NCBI GenBank assembly: GCA_029070945.1
Contig: JAIEBK010000185.1
Span: forward strand, 1-34,053
Source of the DNA: Muribaculaceae bacterium
Lineage (GTDB): Bacteria > Bacteroidota > Bacteroidia > Bacteroidales > Muribaculaceae
Direction of reading: 5' to 3'
Length of the DNA stretch: 34,053 nt
The position numbers and the translations under genes are program-made. The first letter of the stretch is position 1. Each line of letters starts with the position of its first letter. This document shows, in pieces, positions 10,906 through 17,899 of the stretch. The notes beneath the pieces were generated by a model, which saw only the letters and a list, made by a program, of their open reading frames with translations, had not been told where the DNA came from and did not search any database.

Positions 10906-12405
10906 ATGAGCGCAAACAAAGGAACGATCACTCAGATTATCGGCCCCGTCATCGACGTAAGTTTCGAGGGAGGCAAAGAGAACATTCCCCCAATCTACGC
11001 GGCACTGAAAATCACGCGTGACAATGGAGAGGAACTGATACTCGAAGTCGAGCAGCACATCGGAGAGGAAACCGTAAGATGTGTGGCTATGGAATCAACC
11101 GACGGTATCCGCCGCGGCATGGAAGTAGAAAACCTCGGACGCCCGATAGCTGTGCCTACAGGTCAGCAGGTGAAAGGACGTCTTCTCAATGTGATCGGCG
11201 AGCCTATCGATCACCTTCCGGAACTTGACCGAGATCATCTTCGTCCCATACATCAGCCGGCTCCGGCTTTCGAGGACCTTGCGATCTCTACCGAGATACT
11301 TCTGACAGGTATCAAGGTGATCGACTTCCTTGAGCCTTACACCAAGGGCGGAAAGATCGGTCTCTTCGGCGGTGCAGGTGTAGGAAAGACAGTGCTTATC
11401 CAGGAGCTTATCAACAATATCGCCAAAGGCTCAAACGGTTTCTCCGTATTCACAGGTGTGGGAGAACGCACCCGTGAGGGTAACGACCTTCTTCGCGAGA
11501 TGATCGAGAGCGGCGTTATGAAATACGGCAAGAAATTTGAGGAAGGAATGGAGAAAGGTGAATGGAATCTGGCCGACGTAGACATGAGCGAGGTTGAGAA
11601 GAGCCAGGTGACCATGGTGTTCGGACAGATGAACGAACCGCCGGGCGCACGTCTCCGTGTGGCTCTCTCCGGTCTGACGGTGGCTGAGCAGTTCCGTGAC
11701 GCCGAAGGCGGCGGACAGGACATCCTCCTCTTCATCGACAATATCTTCCGTTTCACTCAGGCAGGTTCAGAGGTTTCGGCGCTTCTCGGCCGTATGCCTT
11801 CGGCTGTAGGCTATCAGCCTACTCTTGCATCCGAGATGGGTGCCCTTCAGGAGCGAATCACTTCGACTAAAAACGGATCTATCACATCCGTACAGGCCAT
11901 CTACGTGCCTGCCGATGACCTGACAGACCCGGCACCGGCCACAACATTCTCATTCCTCGACGCAACCACGGTGCTCAACCGTAAGATCGCCGAGCTCGGT
12001 ATCTATCCGGCCGTTGACCCGCTTGACTCAACTTCACGAATCCTTGACCCGAACATCATCGGCGAGGAACACTACAATGTAGCCCAGCAGACCAAGCAGC
12101 TTCTTCAGAAATACAATGACCTTCAGGATATCATCGCGATCCTCGGTGTAGACGAGCTCAGCGACGAGGATAAGCTTGTCGTTTCCAGAGCACGCCGCGC
12201 ACAGCGCTTCCTCAGCCAGCCGTTCCATGTGGCAGAGCAGTTCACCGGCGTTCCGGGCGTGATGGTGCCTCTGCAGGAGACCATCCGTGGCTTCAAGATG
12301 ATTCTGAGCGGCGAAATGGACGAATATCCCGAACAGGCATTCCTTAACGTCGGCACTATCGACGAAGCGATCGCCAAGGGTAAGAAGATGCTTGCCGAAG
12401 TATAA
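10906..12405 (+). CDS. atpD: F1 ATP synthase beta subunit
   Basis: This encodes 499 residues, the catalytic nucleotide-binding subunit of F1. Visible are the Walker A motif GGAGVGKT (155-162), [11 protein letters not shown] just after (about 185-195), the Walker B strand [10 protein letters not shown] near 275, and the DELSDEDKL segment of the C-terminal helical domain that contacts gamma. Compared with the enteric beta subunit as I remember it, about 27 extra charged residues lie between 205 and 232, directly before FGQMNEPPG. The gene opens the atp segment, 104 bases after nuoH and 18 before atpC. Placing D and C in front of B-E-F-H-A-G is the Bacteroidetes order. Confidence 0.98.
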
Positions 12406-12423
12406 CAATAGCACTCTGCGAAA

Positions 12424-12660
12424 ATGACTTTAGAAATCATTTCACCTCAGGAAGTCGTCTTCAAGGGCGAAGCGGTTTCCGTAACCCTGCCGGGAGAGAT
12501 CGGCAGGTTTACGGTGCTTAAAAACCACGCGCCCCTGATTTCGGTGCTCGTTGAGGGAACAGTCGCCTACCGCACTCCGGCCGGAGAGGAGAAAACCTAC
12601 GACATCAAGGGCGGACTCGCGGACGTCGACCACAACGTAATCTCAGTGTGCATCTATTAA
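12424..12660 (+). CDS. atpC: F1 ATP synthase epsilon subunit, short form
   Basis: This encodes only 78 residues, against about 130-140 for the enteric or Bacillus epsilon. The sequence matches the N-terminal beta-sandwich domain (MTLEIISPQEVVFKGEAVSV, then LPGEIGRFTVLKNHAPLIS), which binds gamma and the c-ring. The two-helix C-terminal domain that inhibits ATP hydrolysis in other bacteria is absent. The stop is followed 11 bases later by the atpB start and no frame continues the protein, so this is a natural short form rather than a frameshift. It should couple F1 to Fo but cannot provide helical auto-inhibition. Confidence 0.93.
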   Translation: MTLEIISPQEVVFKGEAVSVTLPGEIGRFTVLKNHAPLISVLVEGTVAYRTPAGEEKTYDIKGGLADVDHNVISVCIY

Positions 12661-12671
12661 CATCTTCCGTA

Positions 12672-13919
12672 ATGAGAAAAAATTTAGCCATACTGTTTTC
12701 CATCATAGCCTTGCTCTTCCTTTCCTTCCCTGCTTTAGCTTCAGAAGGAGAGAAAGGACAGGTCGACGTGAAGGAAAACATCTTCCATCACCTCGGTGAC
12801 GGCTACGGCTGGGAAGTGCCCTTCAGCCATACATACCGCATTCCGCTCCCGGTTATCGTAAGGGCGGAAGACGGCAGCTGGCACTGCTTCTCATCGGGCA
12901 GACTCGTGAAATACGAGGAGCATACCGATGCTAAGACAGGTAAGACACACACTGTAGCTGTTCCGCAAATTGTGACTATTGCTAAAGGAGACTGGCCCGA
13001 TAGATACAAGTTTGTACTCGCTCATACGAGCAAGCATAAAAACAAAGTCGTGCAGCTCATCCCCACATCACCGGCAGATGAAGCGGAAGCCGAGAAAATC
13101 GCTTCAGCTCAGAACGATGAAATTGTAGACGGGTATGTCAAGTTTGACGGAAAATACTATAAGGAATACAAGCCATTTGACATCTCGATTACAAAGAATG
13201 TGCTCGCGCTCTTTATCGCGGCCGCTCTCGTGACCTGGATGGTGATGGGACTTGTAAGGTTCTACACCCGCAATGGATTCAAGGCTCCACGTAAGGGAAT
13301 GGGATTCCTCGAGCTTTGCGTAGACTTCGTCTACACCGGGGTTATAAAAAGCACACTCGGCGAAAAGGCTCCGAGATTCGCGCCCTATCTTCTGACGGCG
13401 TTCTTCTTCATCCTTGTGATGAACCTTCTCGGCCTTATAGTAATATTCCCCGGAGGTGCTAATCTTACCGGCAATATAGCAATCACACTGGTTCTTGCGG
13501 TCATGACATTTGTAATTACAAACATCCATGGCAACAAGCATTACTGGAAAGAGATATTCTGGCCTGATGTACCCCTGCTTCTGAAGTTCCCTATCCCGAT
13601 CATGCAGGTGATCGAGATTTTCGGAATCTTCACCAAGCCGGCCGCTCTCTGTGTCCGTCTCTTCGCTAATATGATGGGAGGCCATATGATAGTGATAACC
13701 CTTACGCTTCTGATATTCATTTTCGCGGCATATGGCGCGGCGGTGGCAGGAGTGTCGGCTGTTGTATCACTGCTCTTCTCCATCTTCATGCTGGCTCTGG
13801 ATACGCTTGTCAGCTTCATCCAGGCATATGTGTTCACACTCCTTTCCACCATCTTCATATCGATGGCCGTACATGAAGAGCACGGCGATCATCATGGAGC
13901 CGCTGTGGAGGAAATATGA
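12672..13919 (+). CDS. atpB: Fo ATP synthase subunit a with signal peptide and periplasmic domain
   Basis: This encodes 415 residues, far longer than the enteric subunit a (about 270). Residues 1-24 are a signal peptide (cleavage near LASE), and 25-170 form a soluble, presumably periplasmic domain starting WEVPFSHTYRIPLPVI. About five hydrophobic helices follow. The essential proton-path arginine is Arg329 in ALCVRLFANMMGGH. The last 15 residues are rich in His and acidic residues. I chose ATG 12672 because it starts the signal peptide; an upstream GTG at 12648 overlaps atpC. Bacteroidetes subunit a proteins are known to me to carry such an N-terminal domain; its function is unknown. Confidence 0.95.
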   Translation: MRKNLAILFSIIALLFLSFPALASEGEKGQVDVKENIFHHLGDGYGWEVPFSHTYRIPLPVIVRAEDGSWHCFSSGRLVKYEEHTDAKTGKTHTVAVPQIVTIAKGDWPDRYKFVLAHTSKHKNKVVQLIPTSPADEAEAEKIASAQNDEIVDGYVKFDGKYYKEYKPFDISITKNVLALFIAAALVTWMVMGLVRFYTRNGFKAPRKGMGFLELCVDFVYTGVIKSTLGEKAPRFAPYLLTAFFFILVMNLLGLIVIFPGGANLTGNIAITLVLAVMTFVITNIHGNKHYWKEIFWPDVPLLLKFPIPIMQVIEIFGIFTKPAALCVRLFANMMGGHMIVITLTLLIFIFAAYGAAVAGVSAVVSLLFSIFMLALDTLVSFIQAYVFTLLSTIFISMAVHEEHGDHHGAAVEEI

Positions 13920-16860: not shown

Positions 16861-16869
16861 TACAATACA

Positions 16870-16899
16870 GGTATGCGCCGGGTGAAACCGACGCATGCC
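16870..16899 (+). other. Stem-loop at the atpA/atpG junction
   Basis: Bases 16870-16877 pair with 16892-16899 (8 pairs, one T-G wobble), then a C-A mismatch, then CGG with CCG, around the loop GTGAAA. There is no T-run behind it. It resembles the hairpin at 10826-10855 in sequence order and mismatch position. The remaining ~110 bases up to atpG are AT-rich, and I see no promoter or open frame in them. Confidence 0.5.
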
Positions 16900-17008
16900 A
16901 CTAATAATATGTAATCACATGCCTGATTAAAGCCTTATATCGTTATTGTCACATTGCCTTTAACCATATACCCTTTAATTAAGCCTGCGAAATTAAAAAT
17001 TAAACACA

Positions 17009-17899
17009 ATGGCAACCCTCAGGGAACTAAAGACACGTATCGGCTCAGTGGCTTCGAGCGAGAAGATCACCGGCGCCATGAAGATGATATCTTCGGCTAA
17101 GGTGCATAAGTTCGAGTCTTCGCTCAAGCAGCTCGTGCCCTACCGCAATAAGATCAAGTCGGTGATGGCCCACATCATGCAGTCCGGCGCTGACTTCAGC
17201 AGTCCGCTCATCGAGACTCGCCATGAGGTGAAAAAAATCGCATTTGCCGTTTTCGGAAGCGACGACGGTCTGTGCGGTGCTTACAATATCAATATATTCA
17301 AGGCCGCCCTGGCGGAGCTGAAACGGTTTCAGGCTAAATACGGACCTACGGTTGAGATCGACATCTACCCTATCGGTCAGAAGATGAACAAGGCTGTTTC
17401 AAAAATCGCAGATCAGCATATCCATGTAGTGAATGTCAAAGGTATCGACTCAAAGATGGAGGCTGAAAAGGTCAATGAATTCACTCATGGTCTCCGCGAC
17501 AAATTCGCTACGGGAGAATACGATCTGGTATGTGTGGAATATATGCATTTCTTCTCCATGAGCCGCCAGAAAGCTACCCTGGAGACTCTTTTCCCGATAT
17601 CGGGAGAGACGCTGCTTGAAGGCTCCGACAGTTCCGAGGCGACGGGAATGTGCATTTTCGAGCCTGATGCCAACAGTATCTTCAACGCGGTGCTTCCGAT
17701 GTTCGTGCTCTCTTCGATGCAGGAGATCACCATTCAAAACCGCGCCTCGGAGCAGGCAGCCCGCGTGATGGCGATGCAGAGCGCCAACGACAACGCCAAA
17801 AAGCTTCTTGAAAGCCTTCGCCTTGAATACAACAAGCTTCGTCAGGAAAACATCACCACAGAGCTTCTTGATATACTTGGAGGTCAGGTGGAACGTTAA
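17009..17899 (+). CDS. atpG: F1 ATP synthase gamma subunit
   Basis: This encodes 296 residues, the central rotating shaft. The N-terminal helix has the family signature ELKTRIGSVASSEKITGAMK with MISSAKV, and the C-terminal helix has RASEQAARVMAMQSANDNAK. These two helices form the coiled coil inside the alpha-beta ring. The middle is a Rossmann-like domain (FGSDDGLCGAYNINIF) with a charged loop. Length is near normal (enteric gamma 287). It is the last atp gene; nuoI resumes the complex I set 48 bases later. Confidence 0.97.
   Translation: MATLRELKTRIGSVASSEKITGAMKMISSAKVHKFESSLKQLVPYRNKIKSVMAHIMQSGADFSSPLIETRHEVKKIAFAVFGSDDGLCGAYNINIFKAALAELKRFQAKYGPTVEIDIYPIGQKMNKAVSKIADQHIHVVNVKGIDSKMEAEKVNEFTHGLRDKFATGEYDLVCVEYMHFFSMSRQKATLETLFPISGETLLEGSDSSEATGMCIFEPDANSIFNAVLPMFVLSSMQEITIQNRASEQAARVMAMQSANDNAKKLLESLRLEYNKLRQENITTELLDILGGQVER

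Follow-up and report, generated by a model that had tools for sequence, protein, structure and literature searches.

The window analysed here is a stretch of 34,053 nucleotides (contig JAIEBK010000185.1, assembly GCA_029070945.1) from a member of the Muribaculaceae, in which the genes for respiratory complex I (nuo) and those for the F-type ATP synthase (atp), which normally occupy separate operons, stand in a single row. Eighteen intact genes on the plus strand, all identified by NCBIfam and Pfam profiles, are arranged as nuoA-B-CD-H, atpD-C-B-E-F-H-A-G and nuoI-J-K-L-M-N (Table 1), exactly the order that an earlier note on this DNA had read from the letters alone. The central block is complete and encodes all eight subunits of the F-type ATP synthase (beta, epsilon, a, c, b, delta, alpha and gamma), while the ten nuo genes around it, between 7060 and 24498, supply the 11 subunits of a headless complex I (A, B, C, D, H, I, J, K, L, M and N), with C and D fused, and do not include nuoE, nuoF or nuoG. 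In the source genome (82.8% complete, 189 contigs), a copy-number search aimed at ATP-synt_A and NADHdh (NuoH) returned one match to each, both in this row. We interpret the row as a conserved oxidative-phosphorylation superoperon of 18 genes that arose by a single insertion, has probably descended vertically and would be switched on and off as a whole from one promoter, an explanation to which, taken in its entirety, we assign a probability of about 0.8.

The nearest named relatives of the source genome are Muribaculaceae, many of them filed under the older labels Porphyromonadaceae or Bacteroidales; most are metagenome-assembled genomes (MAGs) and at least one is an isolate. Among the best 80 of 126 relative loci, all of which look like Muribaculaceae, atpD directly follows nuoH in 78 and the remaining two stop right after nuoH; the atpG/nuoI junction is covered in 66 of the 80. 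The family itself was sampled with 149 genomes, source included; in 132 of them atpB follows nuoH at 2-5 kb, on one contig and strand, only nuoH was found in three, only atpB in one and neither in one, and no genome of this draw has the two genes on one contig in another arrangement. For the order, 119 genomes over 118 families were drawn, 42 of them with a canonical NuoH (E <= 1e-100), and the neighbourhood was examined in 41 of these, G216 being left out. The insertion is present in 8 of the 41 genomes (7 of 40 families), namely the source, a second genome of its family (G013, scored as a carrier by nuoH-atpB spacing only) and one genome from each of six other families, in which the identical row was read from nuoA to nuoN. 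One of these six families was represented by further genomes, and there five of five are linked. Where a genome had a second high-scoring NuoH, as seven did, one locus apiece was fetched. A general Bacteroidales trait is ruled out, as nuoI directly follows nuoH in 33 of 33 fetched non-carrier loci. Among 98 further genomes drawn from the phylum, all matched ATP-synt_A and 88 also gave a NuoH-family match, and in none of them did a comparison of the listings by eye place nuoH and atpB on one contig at most 5 kb apart. Nearest to such a linkage came G267, with the genes on opposite strands, and G288 (L122-L123), which belongs to a different class of the phylum; upstream of its nuoH-nuoI, at about 8 kb and on the same strand, there is an atp cluster, possibly an independent near-linkage.

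As such, the interleaved row is the rule in Muribaculaceae, is common to a set of families and did not turn up elsewhere in the order and phylum as sampled. An oddity of one genome is ruled out by the relative loci, the family draw and the six other families. The comparison of nuoH-nuoI neighbourhoods across Bacteroidales that the earlier note had proposed gives a divided answer: the row is not common to most of the order (8 of 41), yet it is normal in Muribaculaceae and present in at least six more families.

A predicted promoter of the Bacteroidales -33/-7 type precedes nuoA, in line with the claim of a promoter in front of the row. The pattern TTG, 17-23 nt, TAnnTTTG, which we take to be the Bacteroidales promoter consensus, occurs within 200 nt before nuoA in 60 of 78 carrier loci, where shuffled sequences gave 1.5; 57 of these loci are among the 72 from Muribaculaceae and three among the six from other carrier families. 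A second scan recovered it in 58 of 77 loci, with 53 of 59 sites at about 100 nt before nuoA. The full pattern is found in none of 85 nuoH/atpD spacers, in none of 73 atpG/nuoI spacers (those of the window, of 66 relative loci and of six loci from other families) and in no spacer of the ten further kinds scanned within the row. When the scan was extended to 300 nt, into the preceding gene, it gave 2 of 85 before atpD (1.7 expected from shuffles), 0 of 73 before nuoI and 4 of 72 before nuoL (0.8 expected), the last lying inside the preceding genes and being taken for coding sequence. The spacers at the two junctions are short, with a median of 57 nt between nuoH and atpD (24-143, n = 85) and of 44 nt between atpG and nuoI (7-247, n = 73, seven of them only 7-10 nt); the nuoH-nuoI spacer of the 33 non-carriers has a median of 14 nt and is shorter than both. 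Two spacer values, 1650 for nuoCD-nuoH and 1434 for atpB-atpE, were frame artefacts and were excluded.

With all genes on one strand, short spacers, a promoter in front and, as far as the promoter pattern can tell, no excess of promoters at either junction, the row quite probably corresponds to one predicted transcript of about 17.6 kb, from the promoter before nuoA to the end after nuoN. The predicted intrinsic terminator upstream of that promoter insulates the operon on the left, and the row seems to be held together better than its left surroundings, since of the 65 loci that extend 4 kb or more beyond nuoA on that side, only 20 have a match to the left neighbour gene. In the window this neighbour is a bacterial alpha-2-macroglobulin gene (1063-6879, 1938 aa), which lies directly 5' of the operon and has its own strong terminator. 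Searches of the whole window were uninformative, with 13 sigma-70 sites (17.3 expected; presumably not the promoter type used by this bacterial group) and 16 consensus terminators (14.0 expected) showing no excess, and with no matches in Rfam and tRNA scans.

A single mRNA of this kind, driven by one promoter before nuoA, would place complex I and ATP synthase under common on-off control, and such joint switching-on is the most likely regulatory consequence that can be predicted from the sequence. The further suggestion that one transcript would fix the ratio of the two machines is not supported, as protein ratios would be set downstream, by translation and segmental mRNA stability. ATP synthase operons produce unequal subunit numbers from one mRNA through translation, and in the source genome and its nearest relatives hairpins stand exactly at nuoH/atpD and atpA/atpG, which also bears on the proposal of a fixed ratio.

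Table 1. Features of the nuo-atp row and its borders in the window
Feature	Position	Strand	Basis
Intrinsic terminator of the upstream alpha-2-macroglobulin gene (predicted)	6902..6945	+	hairpin then T-run; folding z -6.5 (6880-6960)
Operon promoter (predicted), TTG-N20-TATCTTTG, Bacteroidales -33/-7 type	6955..6985	+	consensus scan, assumed consensus
nuoA	7060..7431	+	profile match
nuoB	7422..8039	+	NF011391 above cut-off
nuoCD, fused C and D	8066..9706	+	NCBIfam and Pfam match
nuoH	9725..10801	+	NF004741 above cut-off
Hairpin in nuoH/atpD spacer, 11-bp stem, 8-nt loop NNTGANNC	10826..10855	+	covariation; model R1, 48 bits
atpD (F1 beta)	10906..12405	+	TIGR01039, 772 bits
atpC (F1 epsilon), short 78-aa form	12424..12660	+	profile covers N-terminal domain only
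atpB (Fo a)	12648..13919	+	profile match; ATG at 12672 is the probable start
atpE (Fo c)	13968..14210	+	TIGR01260 above cut-off
atpF (Fo b)	14239..14733	+	TIGR01144 above cut-off
atpH (F1 delta)	14738..15283	+	NF009964 above cut-off
atpA (F1 alpha)	15286..16860	+	TIGR00962, 747 bits
Second hairpin, same 11-8-11 shape, atpA/atpG spacer	16870..16899	+	shape search and model
atpG (F1 gamma)	17009..17899	+	TIGR01146 above cut-off
nuoI, Ala/Lys/Pro-rich C-terminal tail	17948..18568	+	TIGR01971 (below cut-off) and Fer4
nuoJ	18604..19134	+	profile match
nuoK	19156..19467	+	profile match
nuoL	19479..21431	+	profile match
nuoM	21462..22979	+	profile match
nuoN	23020..24498	+	profile match
Terminator-like hairpin with T-rich tail after nuoN	~24590..24621	+	folding z -3.3 (24499-24640); absent from consensus terminator scan

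The origin of the arrangement was approached with a tree built from a concatenation of eight nuo proteins (47 rows), on which the carriers occupy one side of a single branch (SH-aLRT 100), so that one state change is needed compared with about 14 in shuffles. A FastTree run of 50 rows, which included the loci excluded from the first tree (L105, which is short, and L107 and L113, which belong to another complex I type), agrees in placing the carriers in one clade. The two loci of the different complex I type (from G187 and G233) have about 4.6 kb between nuoCD and nuoH, and no window gene matched in that stretch. The nearest relatives of the carriers on the nuo tree are four non-carrier families (loci L088, L091, L093 and L097). 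In two of these families (G253 and G156), and in G167, which is more distant, the eight atp genes stand in this same order away from nuo; in G171 the same block is present outside nuo as far as the fetched stretch goes, which ends in atpA, and G206 has no ATP-synt_A match. The two operons of G253 share a contig, at a distance of about 11 kb and on opposite strands, and nuo and atp can thus be neighbours without joining. Among 18 other non-carrier atp loci, examined on the atpB side, 16 with at least 3.3 kb before atpB have neither atpD nor atpC there; the remaining two (L153 and L154) were too short before atpB and are uncounted.

Because the carriers form one clade, the best fit is a single ancient insertion of an atp block that was already assembled. 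The simplest history would comprise two steps, in which the atp genes were joined into an atpDCBEFHAG block in an ancestor and the whole block was then inserted, a single time, between nuoH and nuoI of a headless complex I operon of ten genes. This move would date to an ancestor shared by Muribaculaceae with at least six further families of Bacteroidales, with vertical inheritance since.

The hairpins at the borders deserve separate consideration. The one in the nuoH/atpD spacer occurs only in the window and in eight near relatives (L002-L007, L039 and L043), six of these nine loci having a hairpin of the same shape also in the atpA/atpG spacer, and it is missing from other genomes of the source genus (L013, L015 and L057). 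In the nine nuoH/atpD sequences, 8 of 11 base pairs have changed on both sides, and by any measure none of 500 shuffles scored as high; in a wider set of 17 sequences, three of five measures were reached by no shuffle of 500, while the weaker ones, pair changes on both sides and further pair types, were matched by 119 and 7 shuffles, respectively. The model, which was built including the window hairpin at nuoH/atpD, finds four places in the source genome when 150 of 451 first-look candidates are scored. Two are the window hairpins at 10826-10855 and 16870-16899, and the others lie at C137:49178-49220, between two genes of another row, and at C44:17235-17277, before an open reading frame near the contig end. 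After the hairpin, members of this small family have an A-rich ACCAAAAT or ACTAAT. In a search for 11-8-11 hairpins over all loci, TGA loops were found 25 times, but so were TTT loops (mean over 64 triplets, 8.5), so that the loop alone is not telling, and it is place, shape and covariation that are. A role as terminator was rejected for the nuoH/atpD hairpin, as it has no T-run and is restricted to the window and eight relatives, and it was therefore not taken as a border between operons; that hairpins of this type act as a stabiliser or processing site is our guess. Strong hairpins with differing sequences were also found in 30 of 54 carrier atpA/atpG spacers of at least 25 nt, compared with 10 of 84 for nuoH/atpD, 7 of 77 for nuoCD/nuoH, 2 of 76 for atpB/atpE and 3 of 59 for atpG/nuoI, counts that have no shuffle control and among which the atpA/atpG spacers are the longer ones. 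The atpA/atpG spacer itself (window 16861-17008) measures only 3-18 nt in the six other carrier families.

Several points weigh against the reading of a single, vertically inherited superoperon. In 12 of the 149 family genomes nuoH and atpB are on different contigs; five of the six other carrier families are represented by one genome each. The promoter pattern is insensitive, being missing before nuoA in 18 of 78 carriers and 27 of 30 non-carriers and being present there in only three of the six other carrier families, which makes its absence from the junctions weak evidence outside Muribaculaceae; the -7 element alone does occur in 2 of 85 nuoH/atpD and 1 of 73 atpG/nuoI spacers (1.4 and 0.75 in shuffles), and the junction scan reached 300 nt back, with the interior of nuoH farther from atpD lying outside it. 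In addition, attenuation or processing of the transcript could take place at the nuoH/atpD and atpA/atpG hairpins, and the tree was built from nuo proteins, with which a transfer of the whole operon is compatible. The earlier note had named independent promoters and terminators at both junctions as an outcome that would speak against one operon; no promoter excess was found there, a test that is weak outside Muribaculaceae.

It is against this background that expression of the adjacent genes as two or three units has to be judged, whether through an atp promoter placed inside nuoH or in the spacer, or through cutting of the RNA at the hairpins followed by unequal decay. The covarying hairpins at nuoH/atpD and atpA/atpG in the source genome and near relatives would suit such a scheme, as would a promoter-like site before atpD in two of three scanned non-carriers (L089, L136 and L137) and the different carbon-source responses of nuo subunits described for B. 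thetaiotaomicron in the available part of PMC11351048. However, there is no promoter excess within 300 nt before atpD or nuoI, and the nuoH/atpD hairpins lack a T-run and were found by this search in only 10 of 84 such spacers of at least 25 nt, and we consider division into several units unlikely. Spread of the superoperon between families by horizontal transfer, which is formally possible for a tree that rests on nuo proteins, seems very improbable, given that the sampled carriers all fall in one clade with deep, family-sized branches and that 132 of 149 family genomes are linked and none contradicts the linkage. An artefact of assembly or binning might be suspected in a genome of 189 contigs whose relatives are mostly MAGs, but the linkage recurs in G092 and G370, each listed with one contig, the isolate record L064 has the same row, and the chance of such an artefact is vanishingly small.

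Whether the coupling is of any use is a separate matter, and the present data fit both a useful coupling and a frozen accident. In the latter case, a rearrangement would have put the block behind a working promoter, the block would have lost its own and become trapped, and the coupling would have no function. The tree shows one gain and needs no loss, as a trap would give, and in B. fragilis, according to the available part of PMC7002350, deletion of nuo had no significant effect on NADH oxidation or competitive colonisation, so that tight coupling to ATP synthase is without obvious logic. On the other hand, conservation in seven families with short spacers is equally expected from selection, and we give a frozen accident slightly less than an even chance. 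It is also conceivable, if quite improbable, that the interleaving itself was selected, with the row reflecting an order of synthesis through which pump and synthase would share insertion sites or assemble jointly in the membrane, and with the border hairpins, in the source genome and near relatives, setting the dosage of each segment. If this were true, the insertion at nuoH/nuoI would mark a natural assembly break of complex I.

The proteins themselves add some functional context. The C-terminal domain of NuoF (PF10589) was not found in the source genome (82.8% complete) or in eight others of its genus, several of which are incomplete, in a search that did not extend to NuoE and NuoG. With no nuoEFG in the operon and no NuoF-type domain found, the sequence does not point to an electron donor for this complex I, and none is named for B. 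fragilis in the available part of PMC7002350. The sodium pump subunit NqrA is present in six of nine genomes of the genus, source included, and complex I is thus not the sole primary pump in most of them. Two genomes of the same genus that are 99% complete (G050 and G139) gave no NqrA match, and there complex I may carry more of the load. NuoI, which the earlier note inexactly called the iron-sulfur entry, is a relay and not a point of electron entry; its length has a median of 210 aa in Muribaculaceae (164-320, n = 67), 155 aa in the other carrier families (n = 6) and 160 aa in non-carriers (149-239, n = 32). The epsilon subunit of the window is 78 aa long and lacks the C-terminal helical, inhibitory domain, and it measures 77-80 aa in all carriers and four non-carriers measured. 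The c subunit reads IEGVALFAV and lacks both a Ser/Thr following the carboxylate and a Gln at the helix-1 place, the residues which we take to make up the sodium-site motif.

In all non-carrier genomes compared, nuo and atp operons are separate. The carrier clade of gut Bacteroidales, in which the pump and the user of its protons seemingly stand behind one promoter, offers a natural experiment on how the two halves of oxidative phosphorylation can be coupled, and the row may be useful as a single-gain marker for this group of families. There is also a warning for genetic work: two Bacteroides species tolerated deletion of their entire nuo operon (available parts of PMC7002350 and PMC11351048), whereas in Muribaculaceae a polar insertion in nuoA-H, or removal of nuoA-nuoN, would hit ATP synthase too.

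No description of the interleaved row was found in searches of open-licence PMC papers, though it may be in print elsewhere; the available parts of PMC6560451 and PMC3925233 contain nothing on nuo-atp linkage, and that of PMC5709465 does not mention a move of the block into nuoH/nuoI. What we describe is a lineage-wide rearrangement of two well-known operons, and its novelty is limited accordingly. On the atp side, according to the available part of PMC5709465, most Bacteroidetes have epsilon-beta apart from gamma-alpha-delta-b-c-a, and the atpB-E-F-H-A-G part of this split form is as in 16 of our non-carrier loci, where the atpB side is without atpD and atpC. The same source describes for Bacteroides and Prevotella a complete unit, beta-epsilon-a-c-b-delta-alpha-gamma, a minor transcription unit whose order is identical to that of the window; it is described as standing alone, in a text that in its available part contains neither 'nuo' nor the whole word 'NADH'. 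On the nuo side, the window resembles the headless complex I (NUO) of Bacteroides, with ten genes and no nuoEFG in the operon (available parts of PMC7002350 and PMC11351048), and B. thetaiotaomicron has nuoEFG homologues elsewhere in its genome (PMC11351048, same part). The ten genes are contiguous in B. fragilis (BF638R_0841-0850) and in B. thetaiotaomicron (BT4058-4067), so that the earlier note was right about nuo genes adjoining each other in Bacteroides, as far as these two sources go. The fetched non-carrier Bacteroidales have the order A-B-CD-H-I-J-K-L-M-N, and what sets the window apart from the Bacteroides operon is that eight atp genes split its row between nuoH and nuoI.

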